From Thiomicrorhabdus immobilis (GTDB taxonomy: Bacteria; Pseudomonadota; Gammaproteobacteria; Thiomicrospirales; Thiomicrospiraceae): DNA of 64,000 nt. Positions 8,149-44,581 of this stretch are shown here, one piece after another (within the stretch, counting starts at the first letter, position 1; every line of letters starts with the position of its first letter). Below the pieces are notes generated by a model. The model made no database searches. It had not been told where the DNA came from and saw only the letters and a program-made list of their open reading frames with translations. The stretch covers positions 1,922,001 to 1,986,000 of the forward strand of contig NZ_AP024202.1 of assembly GCF_021654855.1 (NCBI RefSeq), in the 5' to 3' direction. The translations under genes and the position numbers were made by a program.

Positions 8149-8808
8149 TTAGTTTTGTAAAAGAGAAGCCACATTATTGGCTACAGGAAAACCATGTTCG
8201 TTTTGAAACGTAGACCAGTCTTTAACTTCACTCCAATCAGTTAAAAACACAAAGTCTAAGCCAGCTCGATTAGAGGCCTGGAAATCATATTTACTATCAC
8301 CTAAAAATAGAGCTGGTGCATGAATGGTTTGTGTTTGTAGTTCGCGTTTTAAAATCACATCCTTATCATCTGGACTACCAAAAATACCACCATCAAACAG
8401 ATCAAATAACTCTCTAGCAGCGAAAACCTCTCTTAACTCATCCTGATCACCACCAGAAACAATTAACCAGTTTGCTTGTGAAGTTTGCTTGCGCAACTCT
8501 ACAAGTCCTGGCGCTATTTCACTTTGCATTAATCCAATTTTAACTTCTGTCGCAAACTTACTTAAAAGGCCATCTAATAACGACTGTGTAACATCCTGTT
8601 TTAAAATCTCTTGAATAAAGTACTCAAACTTTAAATACCTTGAAATCCCTCCATTTCGAACATGGTAGTCAACTAATGCTTTTGCCTTATCTTGTCCAAA
8701 ACTCAAAGTCGCATCATAAAAAGCCTGAGTTTTGACTTTATTCGAATTCAACACTACCCCATCACAGTCAAACACCAATGTTTGATACTGACTCAAATCC
8801 AAATTCAT
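8149..8808 (-). CDS. HAD superfamily phosphatase
   Basis: 219 residues. HAD motif I is FDCDGVVLNSN near residue 13 (nucleophile Asp and acid/base Asp both present). Motif II is the SGG segment near residue 118, and motif IV-type acidic residues occur in FLGDSKYD near 170. The helical cap insert (about 25-90) is beta-phosphoglucomutase-like. The start ATG overlaps the kdsB stop by 4 bp, implying translational coupling, so it most likely dephosphorylates a sugar acid feeding the cytidylyltransferase. It is not a clear KdsC, which is a cap-less C0 HAD, so the substrate is inferred from context only. Confidence 0.85.
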   Translation of the reverse strand: MNLDLSQYQTLVFDCDGVVLNSNKVKTQAFYDATLSFGQDKAKALVDYHVRNGGISRYLKFEYFIQEILKQDVTQSLLDGLLSKFATEVKIGLMQSEIAPGLVELRKQTSQANWLIVSGGDQDELREVFAARELFDLFDGGIFGSPDDKDVILKRELQTQTIHAPALFLGDSKYDFQASNRAGLDFVFLTDWSEVKDWSTFQNEHGFPVANNVASLLQN

Positions 8809-9551
8809 AACTTACTCTCTTGAGCAACTAAAAGCGCAGCTTCAACTTTAGCAACATCTTCAGGTACATCTACTGCCAAACTGCCAGGCTGTGTTTGAAA
8901 CATGCGAATACCTTGATTCCATTCTAAAAATCGTAAAATCTCAATATCTTCAGATTGCTCAATGGTACTTTTACGTCCAAAGCTTCCATAATCCAATAAT
9001 TCTTGTCTACTAAAACCATAAATACAAACCTGTTTGTAATATTCAGCAGGTGCATACTTCTCATCCTTAATACCTGGAATCGCCTGACGAGACATATAGA
9101 TCATCTGCTGCTGCTCAGTAAAAATGACTTTAGGAATGTTAATGGAATGAGGGTCTTCAAATTCTGATAAGGCACAATATCCGTTAATCACTTGATCAGG
9201 ATAAGCCTTCTTTTGCTCAATCGCATTCAATATATCTTGTGGTGAAACTAAAGGTTCATCACCTTGAACATTAATATAAATATCCGCATCTACTTTTTCG
9301 GCGACTTCCGCTAATCGATCAGTGCCTGTTAAAGCTTGATTACTGGTCATGGCCACATGAAAACCGGCATCTTTAACCACCTCAGCAATTCGGTCGTCAT
9401 CCGTTGCCACATAAACATTGTTCGCACCTACCGCTTTTGCACTTAACTCTGCCACCCACAAAACCATCGGCTTACCCAATAGTGGAACAAGAGGCTTACC
9501 TGGATAACGGGATGATTTATAACGTGCAGGAATGACAACAATGGCTTTCAT
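8805..9551 (-). CDS. kdsB: 3-deoxy-manno-octulosonate cytidylyltransferase (CMP-Kdo synthetase)
   Basis: 248 residues, the standard KdsB length. The enzyme couples Kdo to CTP to give CMP-Kdo, the donor for the LPS inner core. The N-terminus carries PARYKSSRYPGKPL, the nucleotide-binding motif of the family. ATDDDRIAE near residue 50 and NVQGDEPLV near 95 follow. It is coupled to a HAD phosphatase downstream and lies 8 bp after the aldolase-fusion gene. In many gammaproteobacteria kdsB sits next to msbA/lpxK. Here it is in a glycan block, so it could be the housekeeping enzyme or a paralogue activating a related 2-keto sugar acid. Confidence 0.93.
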   Translation of the reverse strand: MKAIVVIPARYKSSRYPGKPLVPLLGKPMVLWVAELSAKAVGANNVYVATDDDRIAEVVKDAGFHVAMTSNQALTGTDRLAEVAEKVDADIYINVQGDEPLVSPQDILNAIEQKKAYPDQVINGYCALSEFEDPHSINIPKVIFTEQQQMIYMSRQAIPGIKDEKYAPAEYYKQVCIYGFSRQELLDYGSFGRKSTIEQSEDIEILRFLEWNQGIRMFQTQPGSLAVDVPEDVAKVEAALLVAQESKL

Positions 9552-9559
9552 ATATGTCC

Positions 9560-11173
9560 TTATTTAGTTAATGCGTAAACAGAAATGGAAGGTATTTCAT
9601 ACAGGGTTGGAGTGATGGATTGCAAAGACAGAGCATCCTGGTGTTTTTGATATAGGTTAAAGACTTCATCGGTCTCTTTCTTACGAAGGTCATCCGCACT
9701 ATACCCATCAAATCCTGCTAAATAAATTGATTTGGCCTGTCCAGATGTTGCGATTGCCAATGCATAAGCCACCACCAATGAGTTAGGTAAAGTGCAGTTT
9801 GTTGAGTCAAAAGAAAATTGACAGGCTTGTATCGTCAAACCAAAATCGAGCGTTTTTTTGTTCTTTAACTCCGCCCGTACATCGTCAGGCAACATATGAA
9901 AAGGGGTCGCCAAAGGTTGCGACAATTTTACATGTTCAGAACAGTCCGCGAGCAGACGTATAGGGTGACAAGCTGCACGAATATTAATCAATGATTCATC
10001 AATATTTTTTTGCGTATTTAAGGCAATCACAAAAGGCTGTTTTGCTTTTATGTAAGATTCAATGGCTCTTCGATGCTGTTTAACACTTGGGCCAGCGCCC
10101 AAAATAAGCACTTCACGATTTGATAAGACACTTGCTGGCTGCCAGGTTCCCGTTGGTTCACCAGAAAAGAAATGGCGTGCCGCCTCCAAGGTACTTAAAT
10201 TAAAACGTTTACCACCTTCCGACTTTAAATGTTCAATTACTGCCAATACATCTTCATCGTTATAGCGACTATCGCTTAACATTTCTTGAATGTAAGACGG
10301 ATGTATTCCAAATTTGCCTGCCAAATAGTAATAAGGGTTACTACCCCATCCATAGTGTTTTTGTAATGCATCAAAATAATTTCTTATTAGCTCAAACAGT
10401 GGCGTTAAATTTCCAGATTTCTGATAACGGTTTTGCAGTTCAATTGCTAAATATTCAGTTTTCCCATTACCTGGTCCACGACCCATACCAGTCACGGTTG
10501 CATCCAGCCACTGAACACCCTCCTCAATAGCTTTAAGAGAGTTAGCGAGTGCGTTGCCCATGTTATCGTGAGTATGAATTCCTAACTCACCCTGCCAACC
10601 TTGTTTAAACGCACGAACAATTTTGGTTGTCTCTTGAGGCGTTAAACTTCCCATGCTATCGGCGAAGTACAGAACATCAATTGGAAATTGACTTGCCTTT
10701 TTCGCTAAGTGAGAAATTTCAAGTTCATCACAGTCAGCCACCTGCATCAAGTTAAAGCCAACTTGATACCCCTTAGCTTTAAGCCAACTAGCGGCAGGTA
10801 AACAAGCTTCAAATTGATTCACGTGGCAGGCCACCCGTACCAAAGAGACAGGAGAGTCTTCTGCCTTAACAAAAAGCTCTTCGAGAATGGCATCCATCTC
10901 TATACTAACTTCAACCAATTCACTTCCATTAAGCATGACACCAATTTTATTCTGTAATGATTTTGGTATACCCAAATCATTCAAGAAAGCATCGGTACTA
11001 TAGGCATATCCGCCTTTGAAACCTTCCATTTTTAGTGAACGAAAACCAATCTCAACATAATCAACATTGAGTGCATCCATCGCAGACAAATAATCGGTCA
11101 CTAAGCTATTTGAGAAATCCCATTCATTATAGTAACCACCATCTCTAAGGGTACAGTCAAGCAACTTAACCAT
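9560..11173 (-). CDS. HMGL-type (DRE-TIM) aldolase fused to a C-terminal GxGPS Rossmann-like domain
   Basis: 537 residues. Residues about 1-290 are an HMG-CoA lyase-like TIM barrel. The DRE motif is CTLRDGGYYNEWDF at residues 7-20, the metal-binding HTHDN is near 200, and GMGRGPGNGKTE is near 230, as in 4-hydroxy-2-oxovalerate aldolase relatives. A pyruvate-type aldol reaction is expected. Residues about 350-537 form a second domain starting with REVLILGAGPSV and containing YLAGFDGYS. This resembles the nucleotide-binding fold of DUF115/GT42-like proteins, but I cannot assign it. The gene overlaps the O-antigen ligase gene by 8 bp and precedes kdsB by 8 bp. A role in making or attaching an unusual keto sugar is inferred from context. 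Confidence 0.7.
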   Translation of the reverse strand: MVKLLDCTLRDGGYYNEWDFSNSLVTDYLSAMDALNVDYVEIGFRSLKMEGFKGGYAYSTDAFLNDLGIPKSLQNKIGVMLNGSELVEVSIEMDAILEELFVKAEDSPVSLVRVACHVNQFEACLPAASWLKAKGYQVGFNLMQVADCDELEISHLAKKASQFPIDVLYFADSMGSLTPQETTKIVRAFKQGWQGELGIHTHDNMGNALANSLKAIEEGVQWLDATVTGMGRGPGNGKTEYLAIELQNRYQKSGNLTPLFELIRNYFDALQKHYGWGSNPYYYLAGKFGIHPSYIQEMLSDSRYNDEDVLAVIEHLKSEGGKRFNLSTLEAARHFFSGEPTGTWQPASVLSNREVLILGAGPSVKQHRRAIESYIKAKQPFVIALNTQKNIDESLINIRAACHPIRLLADCSEHVKLSQPLATPFHMLPDDVRAELKNKKTLDFGLTIQACQFSFDSTNCTLPNSLVVAYALAIATSGQAKSIYLAGFDGYSADDLRKKETDEVFNLYQKHQDALSLQSITPTLYEIPSISVYALTK

Positions 11174-12536
11174 TGGAACTAAAACCTTCGCTTATATTTT
11201 GATTTTTTTGTTCAATAAGACTAAAAACAATAAGCAATGAACACAATAAGAAAAAATGGGTACTCATATCTGTATTTTGCAATGGCGTTTCAGGCAAAAA
11301 TGCTAAAAAGCTAGAAATAGAAAAAATTAGACCCGCAATAGCAATCGGTTTAACTTCTTTAGAAACGATACCCACTCTCTTAACAAAAAATGCAATCAAA
11401 AAAACAAAAAATAATAAAACACTGACAAAAACAAAAACACCTTTTGTTAAAAAGCTCATTAAAAACTGGTTATGCAACTGCGAGTATTTAAAGCCACTGA
11501 TGTCTTGATTAAAATGTTCTTTAGCAAAATGTTTGGATTCAAGTTTTAGAAACTCAGGAAACGCATCCTCACCAATTCCGAACCAAACAACTTCTGGTAT
11601 TTTTTGAACCGCAATTTCATAACTCAATAATCGGTGTCCTAAGCTAGAGTTCATTGATTCTCGATCAAGGTATACATTAATCTCTTTGGCAGCTAATGAA
11701 CTTCTATCCGCAATTCTTTTTTTTATAAAATCAACTTGCGACAAACTGAAAAGAACTATTCCTATAAGAATAATAAAACTGACTTTTGGATATTTAATTT
11801 TTGGGAATGAGTCTTTAAATAGTACAAAATAATATATAGCCCATCCTACTAAAGCCTCTGGCCAACCAATCCATGCAGTTCGACTTTTAGTTAACACTGC
11901 TGTCAGGAATAAAGCCACGATAAGCAATACAATAAAACTCAACATCCATTTATTCTTTTTTAAAGCCCAAGGTAAAGAACCTAAAAGAATGATAAAAAAG
12001 CCATTAACAACTACCGCATATTTAACTGGATGTGAATTAATATCACCTAAACGCTGTGATCCTATCCCAGAGTTAAACCAACCATATTCATAGGCATCTA
12101 AAACCCCCACAGATAAAGCGATAGAACCGCCTATCAACATTAGATACCAGAAAAAATCTAATCCAGGTTTTAACTTATAAAGAGCTATGGTTAACCCGAT
12201 AAATACCCAGCTTAAACTAACAACACTTAAAACAAATAAAGCTCTTTTTTCAGGCGACTCATGCGCAAAAGTAGCCACTAAAGTCGTTAACCAATAGAGA
12301 ACTAATAAACCTACCCATATCCATATTTCTCTAGGAACCTTATCTTTTATTTTGTATAAGGTAAAACTGCTAATCAATAAGATTAAGACAAGAACGAATT
12401 CAACATTTACAGATATAACATTACGGTACACATATAAAATAAAAGTGATTGCTATCAAGAAAAACAGCAATCTTATCGTTCCTCTATACTCTCTATTTGG
12501 TAAAGCCATTATCCTGTCAGTCATTAATATATCCAT
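11166..12536 (-). CDS. O-antigen ligase/polymerase family membrane protein (WaaL/Wzy-like)
   Basis: About 456 residues with roughly ten to twelve hydrophobic segments and a large periplasmic loop around residues 255-350, the layout of WaaL-type ligases and Wzy polymerases, which act on undecaprenyl-linked glycans at the periplasmic face. Conserved arginine/histidine features in the loop (SLGHRLLSYEIA, SQLHNQFL) fit the O-antigen ligase family. The longest frame starts at 12569. I prefer the ATG at 12536 (GGTG a few bases upstream) or 12524, because the longer form would overlap the upstream gene by 53 bp. Ligase versus polymerase is not decidable here. Confidence 0.75.
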   Translation of the reverse strand: MDILMTDRIMALPNREYRGTIRLLFFLIAITFILYVYRNVISVNVEFVLVLILLISSFTLYKIKDKVPREIWIWVGLLVLYWLTTLVATFAHESPEKRALFVLSVVSLSWVFIGLTIALYKLKPGLDFFWYLMLIGGSIALSVGVLDAYEYGWFNSGIGSQRLGDINSHPVKYAVVVNGFFIILLGSLPWALKKNKWMLSFIVLLIVALFLTAVLTKSRTAWIGWPEALVGWAIYYFVLFKDSFPKIKYPKVSFIILIGIVLFSLSQVDFIKKRIADRSSLAAKEINVYLDRESMNSSLGHRLLSYEIAVQKIPEVVWFGIGEDAFPEFLKLESKHFAKEHFNQDISGFKYSQLHNQFLMSFLTKGVFVFVSVLLFFVFLIAFFVKRVGIVSKEVKPIAIAGLIFSISSFLAFLPETPLQNTDMSTHFFLLCSLLIVFSLIEQKNQNISEGFSSNG

Positions 12537-13536
12537 TTTCACCAGGTCTATTTTTCTGAATATCACCAATGATTGTCATAATCATCTGCTCTATGTCACT
12601 TTCAGCACGAATAATAAAAGCCTGTAAATACTTAAGCTCTTCTTGCGAATAATGCGCGAAAGCTTCCAGGTCTAGTTGGGAAAGTTCTGAAAAACTAATA
12701 ATCCTTGAACGGTTCTTTAAAGCATCATCTAATAAAAATGAGATCTTAGGGGTATTAGACTCAATGGCAACGAAAGGAATCTTATTTTTTAAACACATGC
12801 TCACCGTATGATAACGTCCAGTAATCACCATTTCATGTTCAACTAAATACTGAATAAAAGCACTCGGTTGCGTTGAAATATTTCGATCCCCCTTTAGCCA
12901 TTTAAAAATATTTTTGACAAACGGGCGTGGGCTTTTAAAAAAATTAGCGTTAGAAGGACGTGCCACAACCATTGAACGGAAATCAAAACCGTGCTCTTGA
13001 CAATACTGTTTTAATAGTGGAATTTCTGATTTAAGAGCTGTATCAATCACGCAAGCTGGTTTACTTGGTTCATAAACATAATGCCCAGCCTTTGCAAAGG
13101 TCAAATCTGGGACATAAAAACCAGTTAAACCAAAGCTATGTAATTCCTCTAAACTGCCTTTGTCACGCACATAAATTAAGCGGTAAGCCTTTAAATATTC
13201 ATAAGCTTGTGCAGTATTTTTATGTAATGTGGCATTAATTAGATAACAAGGTAGTTGTAGTTCTGTTTTTGCAAAACTAGCAAATTCAGATAATGCCCGA
13301 GCATGTTTGCGATTCTCACTATGGTGAATAGTCCCTTCACCATTAACTATGATTGCATCGACTTTTGCTTGTTTTTTAATCTGACGTTTATGCTTACGCC
13401 AATCAACACCAACAGGCCAAGTCCAAACAATTTCAACCCCCTGCTGTTCCAATAGTCGGGTCAAATTCTCCATCACAAGCATACAACCGTAATGGTTGGT
13501 GGGTCTGGTATCATTAATAATGGCAACGCGGATCAT
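12517..13536 (-). CDS. Polysaccharide pyruvyl transferase family protein (WcaK-like)
   Basis: 339 residues. The N-terminus (IINDTRPTNHYGCMLVMENL) and the internal IIVNGEGTIHH segment near residue 63 match the polysaccharide pyruvyltransferase family (Pfam PF04230), as does the later ITGRYHTVSMCL segment near residue 235. Members transfer pyruvate ketals to sugars or act as GT-B glycosyltransferases. The recipient is unknown. It lies in the middle of the glycan operon, and its stop overlaps the possible starts of the ligase gene. The family call is good, the exact reaction is not. Confidence 0.75.
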   Translation of the reverse strand: MIRVAIINDTRPTNHYGCMLVMENLTRLLEQQGVEIVWTWPVGVDWRKHKRQIKKQAKVDAIIVNGEGTIHHSENRKHARALSEFASFAKTELQLPCYLINATLHKNTAQAYEYLKAYRLIYVRDKGSLEELHSFGLTGFYVPDLTFAKAGHYVYEPSKPACVIDTALKSEIPLLKQYCQEHGFDFRSMVVARPSNANFFKSPRPFVKNIFKWLKGDRNISTQPSAFIQYLVEHEMVITGRYHTVSMCLKNKIPFVAIESNTPKISFLLDDALKNRSRIISFSELSQLDLEAFAHYSQEELKYLQAFIIRAESDIEQMIMTIIGDIQKNRPGENGYIND

Positions 13537-13621
13537 AATATCTCATTTAGCTTTCCCGATTCTTTAAAACAAAATCGGTGATTTTCAACAAAGGATTTAA
13601 AATCAACAACAGATAAATCCG

Positions 13622-14215
13622 TTAAAGCTCTTCAATTTTAAATTGATTTTCTGGCAATGCAGTGCGAATAAACTGCTCTTCTTGATTTCCAGAATGCGGA
13701 TTTCTTTTTCTTGGAATTTTTAAAAAATCCATTATTTGATGACTGAATCGCTTTTTTTGGTACCAGTTATCACTTTTAAAGAAATCAAACCCATAAAGAG
13801 TGACTTGACCCTTGCCAATATAACGTCTAATCACATCATAGGTCATACAGCCTGTTGAAGGGTTTGCCCCAAATTTATCATGTAATTCTTGCCACCAATC
13901 CAAAGGATAGAAATACAGTTTTTCAGTGGTTTCTTGAGAGAACTCTTCTCGATGTTTTGGTGTCATCCACATAACAGTTGCATATTGATTCACTAATTGA
14001 TCAATATTTTCTTGTTCAATAGAAGCCGCTAAAACATCCAGTTTATGTCCAACATGCGCCTTCATCTCCTCTGGCATATTCCATGCCCGATTCATACGAA
14101 TAACCACATCATGCTTATCCACTGGATATTTTTTACCCAACACCTTTTGAGAATTGCCTACCAGGGCAATATTTTTATCTTTAATTAGTGCTTCAATATC
14201 TGTAAATGTCTGCAC
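13622..14215 (-). CDS. GT29 (sialyltransferase-like) glycosyltransferase
   Basis: 197 residues from a GTG start with AGGGA six bases upstream. The sequence contains the three regions that define the sialyltransferase family. An L-motif-like segment begins ALVGNSQKVLG and ends VVIRMNRA (about residues 17-45). An S-motif-like segment NPSTGCMTYDVI runs on to VTLYGFDFF (about 120-147). The terminal HSGNQEE carries the conserved His and Glu. Family members transfer a sugar acid from a CMP donor. It is short for GT29 and has no membrane anchor, so it is probably a cytoplasmic core-oligosaccharide enzyme. With kdsB in the same run, the donor may be a CMP-ulosonate. Specificity is inference. Confidence 0.75.
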   Translation of the reverse strand: MQTFTDIEALIKDKNIALVGNSQKVLGKKYPVDKHDVVIRMNRAWNMPEEMKAHVGHKLDVLAASIEQENIDQLVNQYATVMWMTPKHREEFSQETTEKLYFYPLDWWQELHDKFGANPSTGCMTYDVIRRYIGKGQVTLYGFDFFKSDNWYQKKRFSHQIMDFLKIPRKRNPHSGNQEEQFIRTALPENQFKIEEL

Positions 14216-14254
14216 ATTTTTCCCTTTGACGTTAACTTCAGCGAAACTTAAACC

Positions 14255-15352
14255 CTAAAAGCCTTTAATATCTTTGAAAGCCGCGACCATATTCAGACCT
14301 AATGGCTCATATATACGTTTGAATTTTATTTGAAATGCATCTTCTTCTGCTAGAACTGCCGTCACTTTCAAATCTGGCCTTAACCATTTCGCTGTTAATA
14401 GTGCTGTTCCAACATCTCCGATTACATGAGACTGTTTCTTTAAAAATGGCAATATAAATTCAAAAGCCAGTCCACTTGGCAGTAATAGCACATTATACTC
14501 TTCAACGAGTTTTAGCGGGTCTACTTGCCTTGTGCGAGGGTGATACTTAACGGCAACAGGAATTTCCTGTTGTTTCAAAAACGTTAAAAACTCAAAAATA
14601 CGTTTTTCATAACCAGTCATTTTTTTTATATTATTAGGATGTGGAATCAGCAAAAAAACGCCAACATTTTGTAAAGTTCGCAATATTGATTCATTTACTT
14701 GAAAATCAGACAAAATGGCTTTACTAAGTTGTTTAACCTTATTACTTACAAACCACTCTGGCTTAATGAGCTGACATTGCTTCGCTTGCAACAATGCCAC
14801 AGCAAAATCAGGTTGAAACAACCAGGCCTGGTCAATCCATTTCGAAGCGCCGACTGTTTTCGGTTCTTGCCACCAACATCCATAACCTATTTTTTTTAAA
14901 AGACTATTAATCACATCTTTAAAATATTTATAAGGTCTACCAGCATAGGAATACAGGCCATCATCTAGATACCAACCTTCAATAGCGACATTGCTTGACT
15001 GACTCGTATGCATTGCGTATTGAAACTCCACTCTTCGATCACTACCCGTAGCAATCGCGTCTGGATTAAATACTTTAACCAGTTCTGATAATTTAGCAAA
15101 ACTCTGCTTTCGTTCAGCCATTTTATGCCAGCCTTTGGCTCGACCAAAAGTCAAATCTAGGGTTTCAAAAGGACTCTCTTGCCAGTTGTATAGTGCATTA
15201 AAGTAGACATTATCCTCTAAGCTCTTTTGATCAATCAGCACCATTTTTGAAACTTGCTTCTCAGAAAAAGCACTTGCATGAGCAACGGCTACCAAAATAT
15301 TTAAAGGGGTTGATGGTAGATAAAGGACTTTTTTCTTAAGCAATGTCATCAT
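14255..15352 (-). CDS. Polysialyltransferase-like (GT-B) glycosyltransferase
   Basis: 365 residues. The C-terminal half has AVKYHPRTRQ near residue 268 and a following LLLPSGLAFEFIL segment near 290. This arrangement resembles the HP and S/T motifs of bacterial polysialyltransferases and lipooligosaccharide sialyltransferases (GT38/GT52-like). These enzymes use CMP-sialic acid or related CMP donors. The start overlaps the waaC stop by 17 bp, so it is co-transcribed with core-heptose genes. The assignment is by motif only and the donor is unknown. An exact dispersed palindrome lies in frame (D-Q-A-W-L). Confidence 0.6.
   Translation of the reverse strand: MMTLLKKKVLYLPSTPLNILVAVAHASAFSEKQVSKMVLIDQKSLEDNVYFNALYNWQESPFETLDLTFGRAKGWHKMAERKQSFAKLSELVKVFNPDAIATGSDRRVEFQYAMHTSQSSNVAIEGWYLDDGLYSYAGRPYKYFKDVINSLLKKIGYGCWWQEPKTVGASKWIDQAWLFQPDFAVALLQAKQCQLIKPEWFVSNKVKQLSKAILSDFQVNESILRTLQNVGVFLLIPHPNNIKKMTGYEKRIFEFLTFLKQQEIPVAVKYHPRTRQVDPLKLVEEYNVLLLPSGLAFEFILPFLKKQSHVIGDVGTALLTAKWLRPDLKVTAVLAEEDAFQIKFKRIYEPLGLNMVAAFKDIKGF
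14821..14832. repeat. Dispersed palindrome ACCAGGCCTGGT (coding copy)
   Basis: Exact 12-bp copy inside the polysialyltransferase-like gene, read as D-Q-A-W-L. Confidence 0.95.
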
Positions 15353-16388
15353 AAAGGCCTATTTGATTTATCAGTGCTGAAAAAACATCCTCAACACTCA
15401 ACCCCTCCAAAGACTGTAACGCTTGCTCTTTGCCAGAAAATTGTTTGATATACCCTGGCGCACAAGGTGATTCCAAGCGTGTGACTTTGGCGCCATCCGC
15501 TCCTACCAACTTAGGGTCTGTCACTCGGTATAAAACCACCATAGGCACTTCTAATGCCGCCACCACATGCGACAAGCCGGTATCTACCGACACGACCGCT
15601 TGAGCGTTTTTAAGGGCTTTGGCCATATCATTCAGGGACAGCATCTCGGTTGGCACCCAAACATTTTCCGGTTCGGTGGTACTTGCGATTCGTAAAGCAC
15701 GTTGCTGCTCTTCTTGATTTCCCCAAGGCAAAATCACCTTTTTACCCATTGCATTGGCTTTTTGTAAAAGTTCAATCCAGTATTCTTCTGGCCAATATTT
15801 GGTTTCCCAAGTGGTGCCGTGTAAAAACACCCAATAATCGTTTTCAGCAAACTGCTCAACAACCAATTTTGGCTTTGACCAGGCCAGGGTATTTAAGCCA
15901 TAGACTATAGGGGCGTTTTTTGGCAATTCATAATTTAGACTTTGCGCAAGCAACTGACGTAACCGCAAAATCGCATGCTGCTCTTTGGCTACAGGATACT
16001 TGAATTGATAGAACAAAGTGGCTAAGGGTTCGCGAGCACTGTGCCAATCATAACCCGCAGTTTTGGCATTAATTTTTCTCGCTACCCAAGCACTTTTCAG
16101 CAAACCTTGCGCATCAACAATCAAATCATATTGGGCTTGATTGACCTCTTCAAAAAACGTTTTGATTTCTAGACGTGTTTGCTTTTTCAGAAGCGTTTTA
16201 CGCCATTTACGCAACTCTATCGGATAAACCTTATCCACGACAGGATGCCATTTTGGGATTTCTGCAAACGACTTTTCCACCACCCAATCAATAACCAGGC
16301 CTGGTCGCTTTTGTTGTGCATCCGACAAGGCGGGAAAAGTGTGGAACACATCGCCCATTGAGGACATTTTAATCAGCAGAATTCGCAT
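15336..16388 (-). CDS. waaC: Lipopolysaccharide heptosyltransferase I
   Basis: 350 residues, GT9 family. It adds the first L-glycero-D-manno-heptose to Kdo2-lipid A at the cytoplasmic face of the inner membrane. The start MRILLIKMSSMGDVFHTFPAL is the WaaC N-terminal signature (S-S-x-G-D). The DAQGLLKSAW segment near residue 94 and the C-terminal SVDTGLSHVVAAL near 263 are also typical. It follows hldD by 11 bp, so heptose synthesis and transfer are together. An exact palindrome copy lies near the 5' end (16294-16305, read R-P-G-L-V). Confidence 0.93.
   Translation of the reverse strand: MRILLIKMSSMGDVFHTFPALSDAQQKRPGLVIDWVVEKSFAEIPKWHPVVDKVYPIELRKWRKTLLKKQTRLEIKTFFEEVNQAQYDLIVDAQGLLKSAWVARKINAKTAGYDWHSAREPLATLFYQFKYPVAKEQHAILRLRQLLAQSLNYELPKNAPIVYGLNTLAWSKPKLVVEQFAENDYWVFLHGTTWETKYWPEEYWIELLQKANAMGKKVILPWGNQEEQQRALRIASTTEPENVWVPTEMLSLNDMAKALKNAQAVVSVDTGLSHVVAALEVPMVVLYRVTDPKLVGADGAKVTRLESPCAPGYIKQFSGKEQALQSLEGLSVEDVFSALINQIGLYDDIA
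16294..16305. repeat. Dispersed palindrome ACCAGGCCTGGT (coding copy)
   Basis: Exact 12-bp copy in waaC, in a different frame from the other coding copies (R-P-G-L-V). Confidence 0.95.
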
Positions 16389-17384: not shown

Positions 17385-17756
17385 TTAACTGAGCAATTTT
17401 GAAATTATAAAACCACCCCAAACCACAATGGCGATGGCAAAAGAGATAAATACAGCCGCTGAGCCTTGGTCTTTAGCGCGGCCTGAAAGCTTATGATAAT
17501 CTGAACCAATTCTGTCAACGACGGATTCTATGGCCGAATTCAATAATTCAACCACCAATACAATCAATAACACCGCAATCAATAGCGCTCGCTCAGTTGC
17601 GGTATCCCCCAACCAAAAAACCAATGGGGACATCAAAGAAAACAGGATGACTTCCTGTCTAAATGCCGCTTCATGTTTCCAGGTTGATTTAAAGCCTTTC
17701 CATGAATAACCCGCAGCGTAAACTATACGTTTCAGTCCCGAATGAGGAGATTTCAT
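17385..17756 (-). CDS. dgkA: Diacylglycerol kinase (prokaryotic membrane type)
   Basis: 123 residues, normal for DgkA. This integral inner-membrane enzyme rephosphorylates diacylglycerol, recycling the lipid by-product of phosphoethanolamine or glycerol transfer. The catalytic [14 protein letters not shown] segment lies at about residues 69-82, and three transmembrane helices are visible. Its start overlaps the upstream phosphoethanolamine transferase stop by 4 bp. That makes biochemical sense because phosphoethanolamine transfer from phosphatidylethanolamine releases diacylglycerol. Confidence 0.95.
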
Positions 17757-19366
17757 TGCAATCCTTTATCGTAATCTTTGCCATACACCAGACGCGTTTT
17801 GGCTTGGTATTCAGGTAAACAGAGTGACTTCTGCTGATTCATTAAATCACTCTCTACGGGAATCATACACTGAGCGATATGAAAAAAGTCATCCAGCATA
17901 ATAGGCGATTTGATATGTGAGGCTATTAACTTGTCACGCTCTGAAAACTCCGTTTGATAAGCCGCATTTCGCCAAAACATAAATGGCACTTCCAACATAC
18001 TGGTGGTCACGCCATCTGGCCCATGACCTTTAAAGTCTTTGGTATCAAACACCTCTTCACCATGGTCTGACCAGAAGGTTAATCCTGCGATGCCTCGCGT
18101 CGTTTTAAGCTGTTTAATAATTTCACCGAGCACAAAATCGGTGTAATGTACTGAATTATCGTAAGCGTTAATAAAATCTAGTTGGCTTGTCGAAATATCA
18201 TTCGTGTAGGGTTTGATCCCTTTATTATCAGTAAACACGGCTTGTTCAGGAGGAAAGCGGTTTGCATACTGCAAATGACTACCCATCAAATGCACAAAAA
18301 TCACTTTATTTTTTGCTTCATCATTAATTGCTTCTTGGATTACTGGCAATAAATAACCATCATAGCGATTAACTTCGACACCATGAAAGTCGTGACTTAT
18401 AAATTTTGGCACATCTGCTAAAGAAGCAATTGCACTCGTAGGACGTCTAAGTGGTTGTTGGTTTGAAATCCACCATGTTTTAAATCCTGCCTTTTTAAAC
18501 ACTTCTAATACACTTGATGCTTCTGAAATCGATAGTTTATTTTCAATATCTGACTTAGTTAATGTGACATTTAAGGATTGCGCTGTTTGTGCAAAGTTGG
18601 AAATAACATCCCTAAACACCAATAAATCTGCACCCAACTGATCCAAGAAAGGAGTTGTATTTCGCTTATAGCCATACAACGACATGTGATTACGATTTAA
18701 GGATTCACCAACCACAACAACATAAGTTTGCGGCCCTTCATTACAAGCCTTAGCTCCATAAGAAAGGTTTTTATACAGTTCCTTTCGCTTTTCAATCTCA
18801 ACACTTATTGCATCTTCATTCTTCACATAATCAATTGCCACCCCGGTAAAACCGGGAATCACATCAAAGGTACGACCGCGGTCGTTAATTTGCTGAATGG
18901 CGACCAAAAGCATCAAAACACCCAGGCCTGCAAAGACTTTTTCACGGGTTAATTCGGCTTCTTTAAATAAGATTTTCTTTAAAGAATAAAAAGCGATTGT
19001 CCAATAAGCCAATAAGATTAAGACATTCTCTACACTAATATAGGCCTGTAAAAACTCAAGCGCTTCATGGGTATCGGTTAAGGCAATGGCCTCAAACGTG
19101 GCGCTGACAAATACCCCACCAAAAGTAACCGCATAAACAATATCCATACTACCGGATATCGCAAATAGAAAAATCACACCTAATAGAATTTTTTGTAAAA
19201 CCGTATGTCTGAATAAATAAGCTAAACCGCCTAATAGAATCAACCAACCTAAACGGGCATTGAGTTCTGAGCTACGAATAAAATCGGAATAGATGTACAT
19301 AATCAACAATGGGAAAAACAGTACAAAAAACACTGACCACCAATGTGAACGAACCAATTTAGACAC
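17753..19366 (-). CDS. Phosphoethanolamine transferase (EptA/CptA family)
   Basis: 537 residues. It has an N-terminal membrane domain of about five helices (residues 10-170) and a periplasmic sulfatase-fold domain. VVVVGESLNRNHMSLYGY near residue 215 provides the first metal-binding Glu. The likely nucleophile Thr lies in the FAQTAQSLN segment that follows. FWSDHGEEVFD and GHGPDG near 430-450 complete the metal site. The enzyme transfers phosphoethanolamine from phosphatidylethanolamine to lipid A or core heptose. Linkage to hldD/waaC favours a core target (CptA-like), though EptA cannot be excluded. It heads the minus-strand LPS run, divergent from the phosphatase-msbA operon. Confidence 0.88.
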   Translation of the reverse strand: MSKLVRSHWWSVFFVLFFPLLIMYIYSDFIRSSELNARLGWLILLGGLAYLFRHTVLQKILLGVIFLFAISGSMDIVYAVTFGGVFVSATFEAIALTDTHEALEFLQAYISVENVLILLAYWTIAFYSLKKILFKEAELTREKVFAGLGVLMLLVAIQQINDRGRTFDVIPGFTGVAIDYVKNEDAISVEIEKRKELYKNLSYGAKACNEGPQTYVVVVGESLNRNHMSLYGYKRNTTPFLDQLGADLLVFRDVISNFAQTAQSLNVTLTKSDIENKLSISEASSVLEVFKKAGFKTWWISNQQPLRRPTSAIASLADVPKFISHDFHGVEVNRYDGYLLPVIQEAINDEAKNKVIFVHLMGSHLQYANRFPPEQAVFTDNKGIKPYTNDISTSQLDFINAYDNSVHYTDFVLGEIIKQLKTTRGIAGLTFWSDHGEEVFDTKDFKGHGPDGVTTSMLEVPFMFWRNAAYQTEFSERDKLIASHIKSPIMLDDFFHIAQCMIPVESDLMNQQKSLCLPEYQAKTRLVYGKDYDKGLQ

Positions 19367-40793: not shown

Positions 40794-41004
40794 ATTAAAT
40801 ATATTAGCACTTATCTATATGATTTATAAATAAAATATATAACTAAGCCAGGCATAAAACAAAATAATATAATAATATTCTTATATTATTTTTAACTAAT
40901 ATCTTTTGTGTAAAAAAGAATATTTAAACCAAAATACCAGGCATAAAAAAACCAGCATTTTGAAGTGACCCCCAAATGTTGGACACCAACTTTGGGGGTT
41001 TTTC

Positions 41005-41517
41005 ATGTCCAAATACAATCGAGAATTTAAACTGGCGATTGCTAAGCAGTGCCTTTCTCATGAATCCAGTCTGTCCATTTCCAAGCGACTCGGTATTCCA
41101 GATCGCTATATCCGTTACTGGACACAAGTCTATCGTTTCCATGGTCAAAATGCGTTTATCAAACGTAACACACCATACTCTTTTGAAGACAAATATCGTA
41201 TCCTAAAACACATGCGTGAAAATCACTGGTCTATTAGTTATACCAGTATTGTCTATAACATGAGTTCTGCGGGTACGATTTCTACTTGGCTCACTCAATT
41301 CGAACGGTTCGGCCTTTCAGGCTTACAACCTAAAAAGCAGGGTAGAAAAATGAAAAAAAACCAAAAACAAGAAATGGTTAAGCCAACTGAAAAAATGAGC
41401 CTAGAGGAGTTACGAGAAGAACTCGAATACCGTCGAGCGGAGAATGCCTATTTAAAAAAGCTCGATGCCCTGCTACAGGAAAAAGAACGCCAAACCAAGA
41501 AAAAGCAGGGCTCATAG
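41005..41517 (+). CDS. IS3-family transposase OrfA (copy 1)
   Basis: 170 residues, the InsJ-like first frame of an IS150-group element. Two helix-turn-helix segments (about residues 10-50 and 60-105) bind the inverted repeats. A coiled-coil (MSLEELREELEYRRAENAYL) at about 130-160 is the usual dimerisation zipper. The slippery region lies near the end (aagaaaaagc at 41498-41507). Confidence 0.95.
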   Translation: MSKYNREFKLAIAKQCLSHESSLSISKRLGIPDRYIRYWTQVYRFHGQNAFIKRNTPYSFEDKYRILKHMRENHWSISYTSIVYNMSSAGTISTWLTQFERFGLSGLQPKKQGRKMKKNQKQEMVKPTEKMSLEELREELEYRRAENAYLKKLDALLQEKERQTKKKQGS

Positions 41518-41579
41518 ATCAGCTTAGAACGTTCTATCCACTTAAACATCTTCTCAAGGCCGCCGGGCTTGCACGAAGT

Positions 41580-42353
41580 GTGTTTTATTACCATCAGGCG
41601 CGCAGTGCGCTGCCTGATCGTTATGCGGACGTTAAAAGAGCGATTCAACAACTCTTTAATGAGCATAAAGGTCGTTATGGGTATCGACGTATGACCTATG
41701 CGTTAAGACGCTTAGGTCACTTTTTAAACAAGAAGGCCGTTCAACGTTTAATGCAAGAACTGAACTTGAAGTCATTCGTCAGGCCAAAGCGTTACCGATC
41801 CTATAGAGGTCAAGTAGGCCGAATTGCCGAGAATGTGCTTCAAAGAAACTTCCGTGTTGATGCACCGGATAAAAAATGGGTAACCGATGTCACGGAGTTT
41901 AAAGTCGGAGAACAGCGAGTTTACTTATCCCCGGTGATTGACCTGTTTAACCAAGAAGTGATTAGTTATCGAGTGGCCAAGAGTGCACGGCTACCGCTGG
42001 TGACCGACATGCTAAAAGAAGCAATCAATAAGTTAACAGGCAAAGTCAAACCGATATTCCACAGTGATCAAGGCTGGCAGTATCAGCATAGTGATGTACA
42101 GAAGTTACTGAAAGAGAATGGATTAACTCAGAGCATGTCAAGAAAAGGGAACTGTTTAGATAATGCGGTTGCTGAGAACTTTTTTGGAATCCTAAAAACC
42201 GAGATGTATCATCGTAAGAAGTTCAATAGTGCTGAGCATCTAATGGAAGAAATTAAAGACTATATTGAGTATTACAATACAAAACGAATCAAGGTGAAAC
42301 TAAAAGGCCTGACTCCGACAGAATATCGAAATCAGGCCTTAAGTGCCGCTTAA
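41580..42353 (+). CDS. IS3-family transposase OrfB, DDE catalytic domain (copy 1)
   Basis: 257 residues in the -1 frame relative to orfA. The frame is open back to about 41490, so the real product is an OrfAB fusion; the GTG at 41580 is only the first start-like codon. The rve catalytic residues are complete: Asp in TDVTEFKV, Asp in HSDQGWQYQ, and Glu in NAVAENFFG, the last two spaced 35 residues apart. It looks functional. Confidence 0.95.
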   Translation: MFYYHQARSALPDRYADVKRAIQQLFNEHKGRYGYRRMTYALRRLGHFLNKKAVQRLMQELNLKSFVRPKRYRSYRGQVGRIAENVLQRNFRVDAPDKKWVTDVTEFKVGEQRVYLSPVIDLFNQEVISYRVAKSARLPLVTDMLKEAINKLTGKVKPIFHSDQGWQYQHSDVQKLLKENGLTQSMSRKGNCLDNAVAENFFGILKTEMYHRKKFNSAEHLMEEIKDYIEYYNTKRIKVKLKGLTPTEYRNQALSAA

Positions 42354-42427
42354 CTAAAATGTCCAACTTTTTGGGGTCACTTCATTTAGCTGGTTTTTAA
42401 TCAAAGTGAGTTAGAAGTTATTGAAAA

Positions 42428-43057: not shown

Positions 43058-43164
43058 AACTACTCAAACCTCTCAAGAACCAATTTAACCACAAACTACA
43101 GGCATAAAAAAACCGGGAAGTGAAGTGACCCCCAAATGTTGGACACCAACTTTGGGGGTTTTTC

Positions 43165-43677
43165 ATGTCCAAATACAATCGAGAATTTAAACTGGCGATT
43201 GCTAAGCAATGCCTTTCTCATGAATCCAGTCTGTCCATTTCCAAGCGACTCGGTATTCCAGATCGCTATATCCGTTACTGGACACAAGTCTATCGTTTCC
43301 ATGGTCAAAATGCGTTTATCAAACGTAACACACCATACTCTTTTGAAGACAAATATCGTATCCTAAAACACATGCGTGAAAATCACTGGTCTATTAGTTA
43401 TACCAGTATTGTCTATAACATGAGTTCTGCGGGTACGATTTCTACTTGGCTCACTCAATTCGAACGGTTCGGCCTTTCAGGCTTACAACCTAAAAAGCAG
43501 GGTAGAAAAATGAAAAAAAACCAAAAACAAGAAATGGTTAAGCCAACTGAAAAAATGAGCCTAGAGGAGTTACGAGAAGAACTCGAATACCGTCGAGCGG
43601 AGAATGCCTATTTAAAAAAGCTCGATGCCCTGCTACAGGAAAAAGAACGCCAAACCAAGAAAAAGCAGGGCTCATAG
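43165..43677 (+). CDS. IS3-family transposase OrfA (copy 2)
   Basis: 170 residues, identical in protein sequence to the copy-1 OrfA (one silent base difference, 41049 versus 43209). Same helix-turn-helix pair, coiled coil and 3' slippery run. Confidence 0.95.
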   Translation: MSKYNREFKLAIAKQCLSHESSLSISKRLGIPDRYIRYWTQVYRFHGQNAFIKRNTPYSFEDKYRILKHMRENHWSISYTSIVYNMSSAGTISTWLTQFERFGLSGLQPKKQGRKMKKNQKQEMVKPTEKMSLEELREELEYRRAENAYLKKLDALLQEKERQTKKKQGS

Positions 43678-43739
43678 ATCAGCTTAGAACGTTCTATCCA
43701 CTTAAACATCTTCTCAAGGCCGCCGGGCTTGCACGAAGT

Positions 43740-44513
43740 GTGTTTTATTACCATCAGGCGCGCAGTGCGCTGCCTGATCGTTATGCGGACGTTAAAAGAG
43801 CGATTCAACAACTCTTTAATGAGCATAAAGGTCGTTATGGGTATCGACGTATGACCTATGCGTTAAGACGCTTAGGTCACTTTTTAAACAAGAAGGCCGT
43901 TCAACGTTTAATGCAAGAACTGAACTTGAAGTCATTCGTCAGGCCAAAGCGTTACCGATCCTATAGAGGTCAAGTAGGCCGAATTGCCGAGAATGTGCTT
44001 CAAAGAAACTTCCGTGTTGATGCACCGGATAAAAAATGGGTAACCGATGTCACGGAGTTTAAAGTCGGAGAACAGCGAGTTTACTTATCCCCGGTGATTG
44101 ACCTGTTTAACCAAGAAGTGATTAGTTATCGAGTGGCCAAGAGTGCACGGCTACCGCTGGTGACCGACATGCTAAAAGAAGCAATCAATAAGTTAACAGG
44201 CAAAGTCAAACCGATATTCCACAGTGATCAAGGCTGGCAGTATCAGCATAGTGATGTACAGAAGTTACTGAAAGAGAATGGATTAACTCAGAGCATGTCA
44301 AGAAAAGGGAACTGCTTAGATAATGCAGTTGCTGAGAACTTTTTTGGGATTTTAAAAACAGAGATGTACCATCGCAAGAAATTCAATAGTGCTGAGCATC
44401 TGATGGAAGAGATTAAAGATTATATTGAGTATTACAATACAAAACGAATCAAGGTGAAACTAAAAGGCCTGACTCCGATAGAATATCGAAATCAGGCCTT
44501 AAGTGCCGCTTAA
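43740..44513 (+). CDS. IS3-family transposase OrfB, DDE catalytic domain (copy 2)
   Basis: 257 residues. The protein differs from copy 1 at one position near the C-terminus (Ile for Thr in LTPIEYRN). The DD(35)E residues are intact and expression is expected as an OrfAB frameshift fusion. A 106-bp tract (44315-44420) carries 12 synonymous differences from copy 1. Confidence 0.95.
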   Translation: MFYYHQARSALPDRYADVKRAIQQLFNEHKGRYGYRRMTYALRRLGHFLNKKAVQRLMQELNLKSFVRPKRYRSYRGQVGRIAENVLQRNFRVDAPDKKWVTDVTEFKVGEQRVYLSPVIDLFNQEVISYRVAKSARLPLVTDMLKEAINKLTGKVKPIFHSDQGWQYQHSDVQKLLKENGLTQSMSRKGNCLDNAVAENFFGILKTEMYHRKKFNSAEHLMEEIKDYIEYYNTKRIKVKLKGLTPIEYRNQALSAA

Positions 44514-44581
44514 CTAAAATGTCCAACTTTTTGGGGTCACTTCAAAGACCCGGCTTTTTATTACTTTAGTTATTGAACAAG

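Follow-up and report, generated by a model that had tools for sequence, protein, structure and literature searches.

A run of minus-strand genes in the 64,000-nucleotide stretch of the Thiomicrorhabdus immobilis genome analyzed here (hereafter the window; contig NZ_AP024202.1, positions 1,922,001 to 1,986,000) appears, with a probability of roughly 0.6, to encode a pathway devoted to making an acidic 2-keto-3-deoxy sugar (ulosonic acid) of the lipopolysaccharide (LPS) core or another surface glycan. The block, at 8149-16388, centers on a trio of genes: an aldolase fused to a second, C-terminal domain; a divergent KdsB-like cytidylyltransferase that we call KdsB3; and a HAD phosphatase. The N-terminal HMGL-type domain of the fusion would condense pyruvate with a sugar aldehyde, probably a phosphorylated one; the HAD enzyme would strip the phosphate; KdsB3 would use cytidine triphosphate (CTP) to turn the free ulosonate into a cytidine monophosphate (CMP) sugar, as its family and conserved catalytic residues suggest; and the acid may then be attached by the fused Maf/CstII-like domain, the GT29-like protein or the polysialyltransferase-like protein, to judge from a predicted fold and motifs. 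What the sequences themselves show is the conservation of the gene unit, the divergence of KdsB3 and the domain composition, for which the C-terminal fold is that of a predicted model; the catalytic steps are inferred. A wider reading, which we hold tentatively and at somewhat less than even odds, is that the block represents a third route to CMP-ulosonates, in which a pyruvate-dependent DRE-TIM aldolase with a fused Maf/CstII-like transferase replaces the phosphoenolpyruvate (PEP)-dependent NeuB/KdsA synthase, yields a new sugar acid, and has spread laterally among marine and environmental bacteria.

The fusion and its partner genes

An earlier reading of this DNA, made from the letters alone (the sequence-only reading), had proposed that the genes be searched for co-occurrence. 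We collected 30 distinct loci carrying the fusion, including the window and excluding L029, which shares a contig with L023; the hidden Markov models used were partly built from the loci on which they were run. An open reading frame (ORF) for a cytidylyltransferase was present near the fusion in 28 of the 30 loci, mostly as the next gene and at most about 2.2 kb away, and a HAD gene in 22. The two loci lacking the cytidylyltransferase are L039, which has only about 2.2 kb of contig left beyond the gene, and L045, a 140-aa fragment of the gene. Given that the window genome holds only four CTP_transf_3 genes, this association is well beyond chance. Of the 28 cytidylyltransferases, 15 are clear KdsB3 by blastp (that of the window and 14 others, 45-89% identity), two are annotated KdsB, seven are NeuA/PseF-like, that of L043 is distant (28%), and three are untyped (L040, L044 and L046).

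The fusion itself is rare and patchy: of 58 family genomes 8 carry it, and of 398 genomes from the phylum 2 do (T. immobilis being counted in both). It also occurs in 20 loci from a species-genome collection that include Gammaproteobacteria, SAR11 and Actinomarina. A close KdsB3 (68-100% identity) is found in five of the 58 family genomes, all among the eight with the fusion, an overlap with a chance probability of 1.2e-5 on the assumption, not true of these genomes, of independence. In the other three fusion genomes of the family, a NeuA/PseF-like cytidylyltransferase (PF02348) adjoins the aldolase. Among plasmids, 70 records match the fusion, three of them at a coverage of at least 80%, all from Leisingera; both Leisingera plasmids inspected carry an annotated aldolase, a 3-deoxy-manno-octulosonate cytidylyltransferase and a HAD hydrolase in a row, in the same order as in the window. 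Seven phage records matched weakly, each over less than 80% of the query. The unit of aldolase, dedicated CMP-synthetase and usually a phosphatase occurs in Gammaproteobacteria and on Roseobacter plasmids, and in SAR11 without the HAD gene in the stretches examined, mostly amid LPS or polysaccharide genes.

The aldolase-like domain

The N-terminal domain belongs to the HMGL-like/DRE-TIM superfamily, as it carries the Arg-Asp pair and the HxH metal site and matches PF00682 (HMGL-like) at 97.2 bits (cut-off 29); the Pfam matches of the other two trio members, HAD (36.1 bits) and CTP_transf_3 (141.7 bits), also exceed their curated cut-offs. With the full fusion model as query, the aldolase/HMGL superfamily was among the 50 Foldseek matches listed. 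The N-terminal domain resembles two structures: 3dxi, an aldolase fragment (BVU_2661), at 32% identity and a Foldseek E of 6.5e-20, and DmpG (1nvm), at 20% identity and a Foldseek E of 3.8e-16. With both it has in common the fold, the metal ligands and the CTLRDGG and HTHDN motifs. All 18 aligned sequences have R10, D11, H200 and H202, a set that includes the metal ligands and the Arg that binds pyruvate. The relationship to DmpG is distant: the fusion scored 100.7 bits on the DmpG equivalog TIGR03217, whose cut-off is 286, and 113.9 bits on NF006049 (cut-off 229). It also differs from DmpG in having a fused C-terminal domain and lying in a glycan locus.

Several observations weigh against the aldolase as the source of the acid, or against the pathway as a whole. 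Tyr14, invariant in the fusion, aligns with His21 of DmpG, which we take to be the base of that enzyme, so the aldolase chemistry may differ from that of DmpG. In 5 of the 30 loci (L020, L023, L028, L031 and L039), an HpcH/HpaI aldolase is encoded next to the fusion or close by, and in those loci it might be the true source of the keto acid. No HAD gene was seen in 8 of the 30 loci; some of these loci lie on short contigs, which is not the case for the SAR11 and Methylovulum stretches. One family genome (G022) has a KdsB3-like match of 43% identity without the fusion, and three unfused relatives of the aldolase lie on plasmids outside glycan loci. Two of the unfused relatives (L081 and L082), on plasmids of Mesorhizobium and Paraburkholderia from plant-nodule or plant sources, stand with SDR and HAD-IA hydrolase genes, a setting that possibly reflects another aldolase-HAD pathway. 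A conventional synthase paralogue as the only keto-acid source was the case that the sequence-only reading had held against itself, and conventional kdsA and pseI do exist in the genome; each has a cytidylyltransferase of its own kind.

The substitution of His21, the distance from DmpG and the HpcH/HpaI genes would all fit an alternative in which the aldolase belongs to the pathway but acts at another step or on another donor, for example by tailoring or shortening a precursor or by making the aldehyde, and the keto-acid backbone is supplied by a second aldolase, KdsA or PseI. We consider this unlikely, as no HpcH/HpaI aldolase was seen in the stretch examined in 25 of the 30 loci, and the metal ligands and the Arg are unchanged throughout the 18 sequences.

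KdsB3 and the other ulosonate genes of the genome

The cytidylyltransferase of the block had been labeled kdsB. This label holds at the subfamily level, since the protein passes the broad KdsB models NF009905 (cut-off 255 bits) and NF003952, but not at the level of the kdsB equivalog TIGR00466, on which it scores 141.4 bits against a cut-off of 155.2. K19, D98 and D228 are kept in 14 of 14 aligned KdsB3 rows; for Aquifex aeolicus KdsB, excerpts of one report name a catalytic Lys19 and two metal-binding Asp (PMC3149649). By contrast, 16 positions at which 12 canonical and dehydrogenase-linked KdsB sequences all agree carry a different residue in 12 or more of the 14 KdsB3 rows. H174Q and Q205I, in particular, occur in all 14, while the H and the Q are fixed in 12 of 12 of the others, which suggests a substrate other than Kdo (3-deoxy-manno-octulosonate) for KdsB3. 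Because the catalytic residues are kept and these positions are switched, KdsB3 is probably an active enzyme that handles another sugar. The residue tally leaves out the very divergent L043, and both the tally and the tree described below leave out L033, L079, L080, L040, L044 and L046.

In a tree of cytidylyltransferases (of the quick type, with long-branch warnings, computed after five duplicate rows were taken out), the 14 KdsB3 rows form one group (SH-aLRT 95), which falls with KdsB and not with the NeuA/PseF-like enzymes. Eight NeuA/PseF-like genes of fusion loci cluster in one clade (SH-aLRT 99), separate from the PseF-like genes that those genomes also carry. Nearly all placed cytidylyltransferases of fusion loci fall in two dedicated lineages.

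The 2.54-Mb genome has four CTP_transf_3 genes. Besides KdsB3, these are the canonical KdsB (TIGR00466, 308.5 bits), adjoining a gene read as lpxK; a second KdsB (TIGR00466, 214.1 bits), flanked on one side by an iron-containing alcohol dehydrogenase gene and on the other by a WaaA-like gene that scores 345.6 bits against a model cut-off of 438; and PseF, close to PseI. KdsA (435 bits) and KdsC (169.1 bits) are encoded elsewhere, outside the block. All eight fusion genomes of the family likewise hold a canonical KdsB, so KdsB3 is an extra copy. The claim that no NeuB/KdsA-type synthase is present thus stands for the block, where PF03102 and PF00793 (NeuB/KdsA) were absent among the eight proteins in Pfam and NCBIfam searches at E up to 0.1, but not for the genome, which has both KdsA and PseI.

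These genes bear on the simplest alternative, in which KdsB3 would be a redundant CMP-Kdo synthetase supplied by KdsA and KdsC, the local transferases would add extra Kdo to the outer core, and the aldolase would serve another function. A good KdsA and KdsC in the genome, the broad KdsB models and the retained catalytic residues would all agree with it. It is nevertheless improbable, given the failure on the equivalog, Q and I at positions 174 and 205 in every row, and the linked presence and absence of KdsB3 and the aldolase. A Kdo-only reading of the block was also weakened by the presence of KdsA, KdsC and KdsB elsewhere together with the consistent differences of KdsB3. A phosphonate product was set aside because no PEP mutase model matched any of the eight block proteins; CTP transferases also activate phosphonates, according to PMC6697681.

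The second KdsB stands next to the alcohol dehydrogenase and WaaA-like genes at about 2.486 Mb of the same genome (L005, 250-3508), in an arrangement that presumably resembles the Shewanella-type Kdo8N (KdnB) one. KdsB genes of its clade occur in three of the seven other fusion genomes of the family.

The C-terminal domain of the fusion

We modeled the C-terminal domain on its own from 17 sequences (predicted local distance difference test score, 94.1). In a VIA-align comparison of this model, the Maf glycosyltransferase 5mu5 ranked first (Z 14.4, 184 aa, root-mean-square deviation (rmsd) 3.1). Six rows of bacterial sialyltransferases scored Z 10.6-11.5, among them CstII (1ro8; Z 11.5, 174 aa, rmsd 4.0), CstI (10.8) and the Pasteurella multocida sialyltransferase (10.6), and mammalian sialyltransferases scored about 8 (2wml, Z 8.5). 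The same list has SteA at Z 12.8 and the archaeal pterin pyrophosphokinase HPPK at Z 12.7, the fold being common to these proteins. G20, G22, N47, P85, GFDG, D156 and TP are invariant in the 17 sequences. On the basis of the predicted fold and the context, we tentatively favor a role as a CMP-ulosonate transferase.

The points that tell against a transferase belong together. Foldseek ranks SteA and HPPK first for this model, and Maf and CstII, found by VIA-align, are not among the 50 Foldseek matches listed. The sole sequence match in the PDB at E < 0.01 is a weak one to HPPK of Methanocaldococcus jannaschii (E 0.0066). The domain has no evident counterpart of the catalytic His of CstII, at the positions that we take this residue to occupy. 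It also scores 16.2 bits on PF01973 (MptE-like in Pfam; cut-off 34.6), which presumably covers Maf proteins. The match to HPPK, the Z scores of SteA and HPPK and their Foldseek ranks would suit a nucleotide-binding or pyrophosphokinase-like module of the MptE/HPPK type, with the fusion acting only as a synthase, a reading compatible with the proposed pathway. We regard it as a serious, if less favored, possibility, because Maf has the highest Z score and the longest alignment, six sialyltransferase rows also appear at Z 10.6-11.5, and the context is one of glycan and CMP-sugar genes.

The phosphatase and the putative transferases

The phosphatase of the window matches HAD-IA models (TIGR01549). 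The HAD motifs FDCDGV, SG, K and GDSxYD are conserved across 18 aligned homologs and can be recognized by eye in the window protein.

The GT29-like protein (13622-14215) is very small, and its neighbors suggest a CMP-ulosonate donor. Its PF00777 match is limited to residues 17-63. Aligned with ST3Gal (2wnb), the regions of the L and S motifs match weakly (whole-sequence E 0.0063; second stretch, 2.6 bits). NPSTG, LYGF, H174, E179 and E180 are invariant in three sequences, the His-Glu pair making a VS-like motif; L, S, III and VS are the GT29 sialylmotif names used in excerpts of PMC5811610 and PMC1508147. The GT29 trees of PMC5811610, as its excerpts put it, did not permit predicting the function of bacterial GT29 enzymes.

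Among the 27 loci L019-L045, the GT29-like gene was found only in L023/L029 (one contig) and L027, as was the cassette that combines it with pyruvyltransferase-like and polysialyltransferase-like genes; it is therefore not an obligatory partner of the fusion. Homologs of Wzy_C occur in L023, L025 and L027, and pyruvyltransferase homologs in L023 and L027. Ten proteins encoded next to the trio in other loci were scanned for CMP-using transferases, yielding one PF07388 match above the cut-off (26.0 bits, in L025), another that falls short of it (16.4 bits, in L036), a GT2 match (L019), a weak EpsG match (L034), and no fitting family for the remaining six. Among these ten neighbors, a small share of the total, no single transferase family was seen to go with the trio.

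Five loci (L024, L026, L030, L034 and L037) have a shared gene set near the fusion, whose members in L034 match Polysacc_synt_2, an epimerase with a polysaccharide C-terminal domain, and UDP-GlcNAc 2-epimerase. As this set suggests O-antigen or capsule units in these loci, the acid may also occur outside the outer core.

Gene order, composition and mobility

The sequence-only reading had placed eight named genes in one minus-strand run, with a 4-bp overlap of the HAD and kdsB ORFs, and ORF, Pfam and NCBIfam analyses bear out both the genes and the overlap (Table 1). In the direction of transcription, the run begins with a sulfatase-family ORF (17753-19366), followed by dgkA-like and hldD-like genes (labels that we assign from sequence), waaC, and the genes for the polysialyltransferase-like, GT29-like, pyruvyltransferase-family and Wzy_C proteins, the fusion, KdsB3 and HAD. 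The protein named waaC by NCBIfam also matches Glyco_transf_9 of Pfam (173.5 bits), and its presence ties the block to LPS core synthesis.

Table 1. Genes and domains of the block, with positions in the window.
Feature	Position	Strand	Model match
HAD-IA phosphatase, proposed ulosonate-phosphate phosphatase	8149..8808	-	PF00702/PF13419, TIGR01549
KdsB3, divergent KdsB-like cytidylyltransferase, proposed CMP-ulosonate synthetase	8805..9551	-	NF009905, 284.5 bits
Two-domain fusion, DmpG-like aldolase and Maf/GT42/GT29-type domain, 537 aa	9560..11173	-	
Fusion, N-terminal metal-dependent pyruvate-aldolase-like (DRE-TIM/HMGL) domain, about residues 1-335	10169..11173	-	
Fusion, C-terminal domain, residues 340-537, GT29/GT42/Maf-type fold (predicted)	9563..10156	-	
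Wzy_C O-antigen ligase/polymerase-like membrane protein	11166..12569	-	PF04932, 48.6 bits (cut-off 31.7)
Polysaccharide pyruvyltransferase-family protein	12517..13536	-	PF04230, 59.9 bits (cut-off 25.3)
Small GT29-like protein, 197 aa	13622..14215	-	PF00777, 33.2 bits (cut-off 23)
Polysialyltransferase-like protein	14255..15352	-	PF07388 (A-2_8-polyST), 29.2 bits (cut-off 23.3)
waaC, LPS heptosyltransferase I	15336..16388	-	TIGR02193, 338.5 bits (cut-off 185.3)

G+C content is 32-41% for the seven genes from the polysialyltransferase-like gene to HAD, 44.5% for waaC, and 41.3% for the window, values consistent with lateral acquisition of the seven genes without proving it. The gene set looks mobile and occurs in marine and environmental bacteria. 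L021 (4668-7761) has two copies of the cassette's HAD gene (proteins 93% identical), one on each side of DDE transposase ORFs, which suggests reshuffling linked to insertion sequences. Elsewhere in the window, two copies of a transposase pair (an HTH ORF and an rve integrase ORF, IS3-like by our reading; 40976-42371 and 43136-44531; 99.0% identical) flank an HbpS-like gene on the minus strand, in a composite-transposon-like arrangement.

Relation to known pathways

The proposed pathway parallels the Kdo pathway of KdsA, KdsC and KdsB in its sequence of C-C bond formation, dephosphorylation by a HAD enzyme and activation with CMP. It differs in that the first enzyme is an unrelated HMGL/DmpG-type aldolase fusion and the phosphatase is of the HAD-IA type, KdsC being a separate gene elsewhere. 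With the pathways of NeuB or PseI, a phosphatase, and NeuA or PseF it has in common a presumed CMP-ulosonate product, proteins of the GT29, GT42, Maf and polysialyltransferase types and, in some fusion loci, a NeuA/PseF-like synthetase; unlike them, the block of the window has no NeuB or PseI. The C-terminal domain is predicted to fold like the Maf flagellin glycosyltransferase and CstII (GT42), but it sits on an aldolase, no counterpart of the catalytic His of CstII was found, and the locus is not flagellar. The Shewanella-type Kdo8N pathway (KdnA/KdnB) is likewise an alternative CMP-ulosonate supply with its own copy of KdsB; its candidate set in this genome, however, is L005, whose KdsB keeps the H and Q lost in KdsB3.

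The proposal that the aldolase replaces a conventional synthase is partly supported by these results. The conserved unit of aldolase, CMP-synthetase and phosphatase and the block's want of a PEP-dependent synthase speak for it, whereas the GT29-like enzyme has dropped out as a constant partner. Strengthened by the co-occurrence and by the nature of the fused domain, it is the best available reading of the block, and it remains a prediction. We found no paper describing the trio or the fusion, judging by titles and the beginnings of abstracts; subscription literature is poorly covered by such a search, so that a published account may exist.

Implications

To our knowledge, the established routes to CMP-activated Kdo, sialic, pseudaminic and legionaminic acids all start with a NeuB/KdsA-type synthase that depends on PEP. 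If the proposed pathway is correct, a start by pyruvate aldolase would represent an independent origin of ulosonate chemistry, would probably lead to a new LPS sugar, and would offer a synthetically useful aldolase. If the C-terminal domain is a transferase, one protein would couple the synthesis of the sugar acid with its attachment. The GT29-like gene shares the block with a probable CMP-ulosonate module, and the pathway, if real, would also indicate which donor is used by at least one GT29-like enzyme of bacteria.

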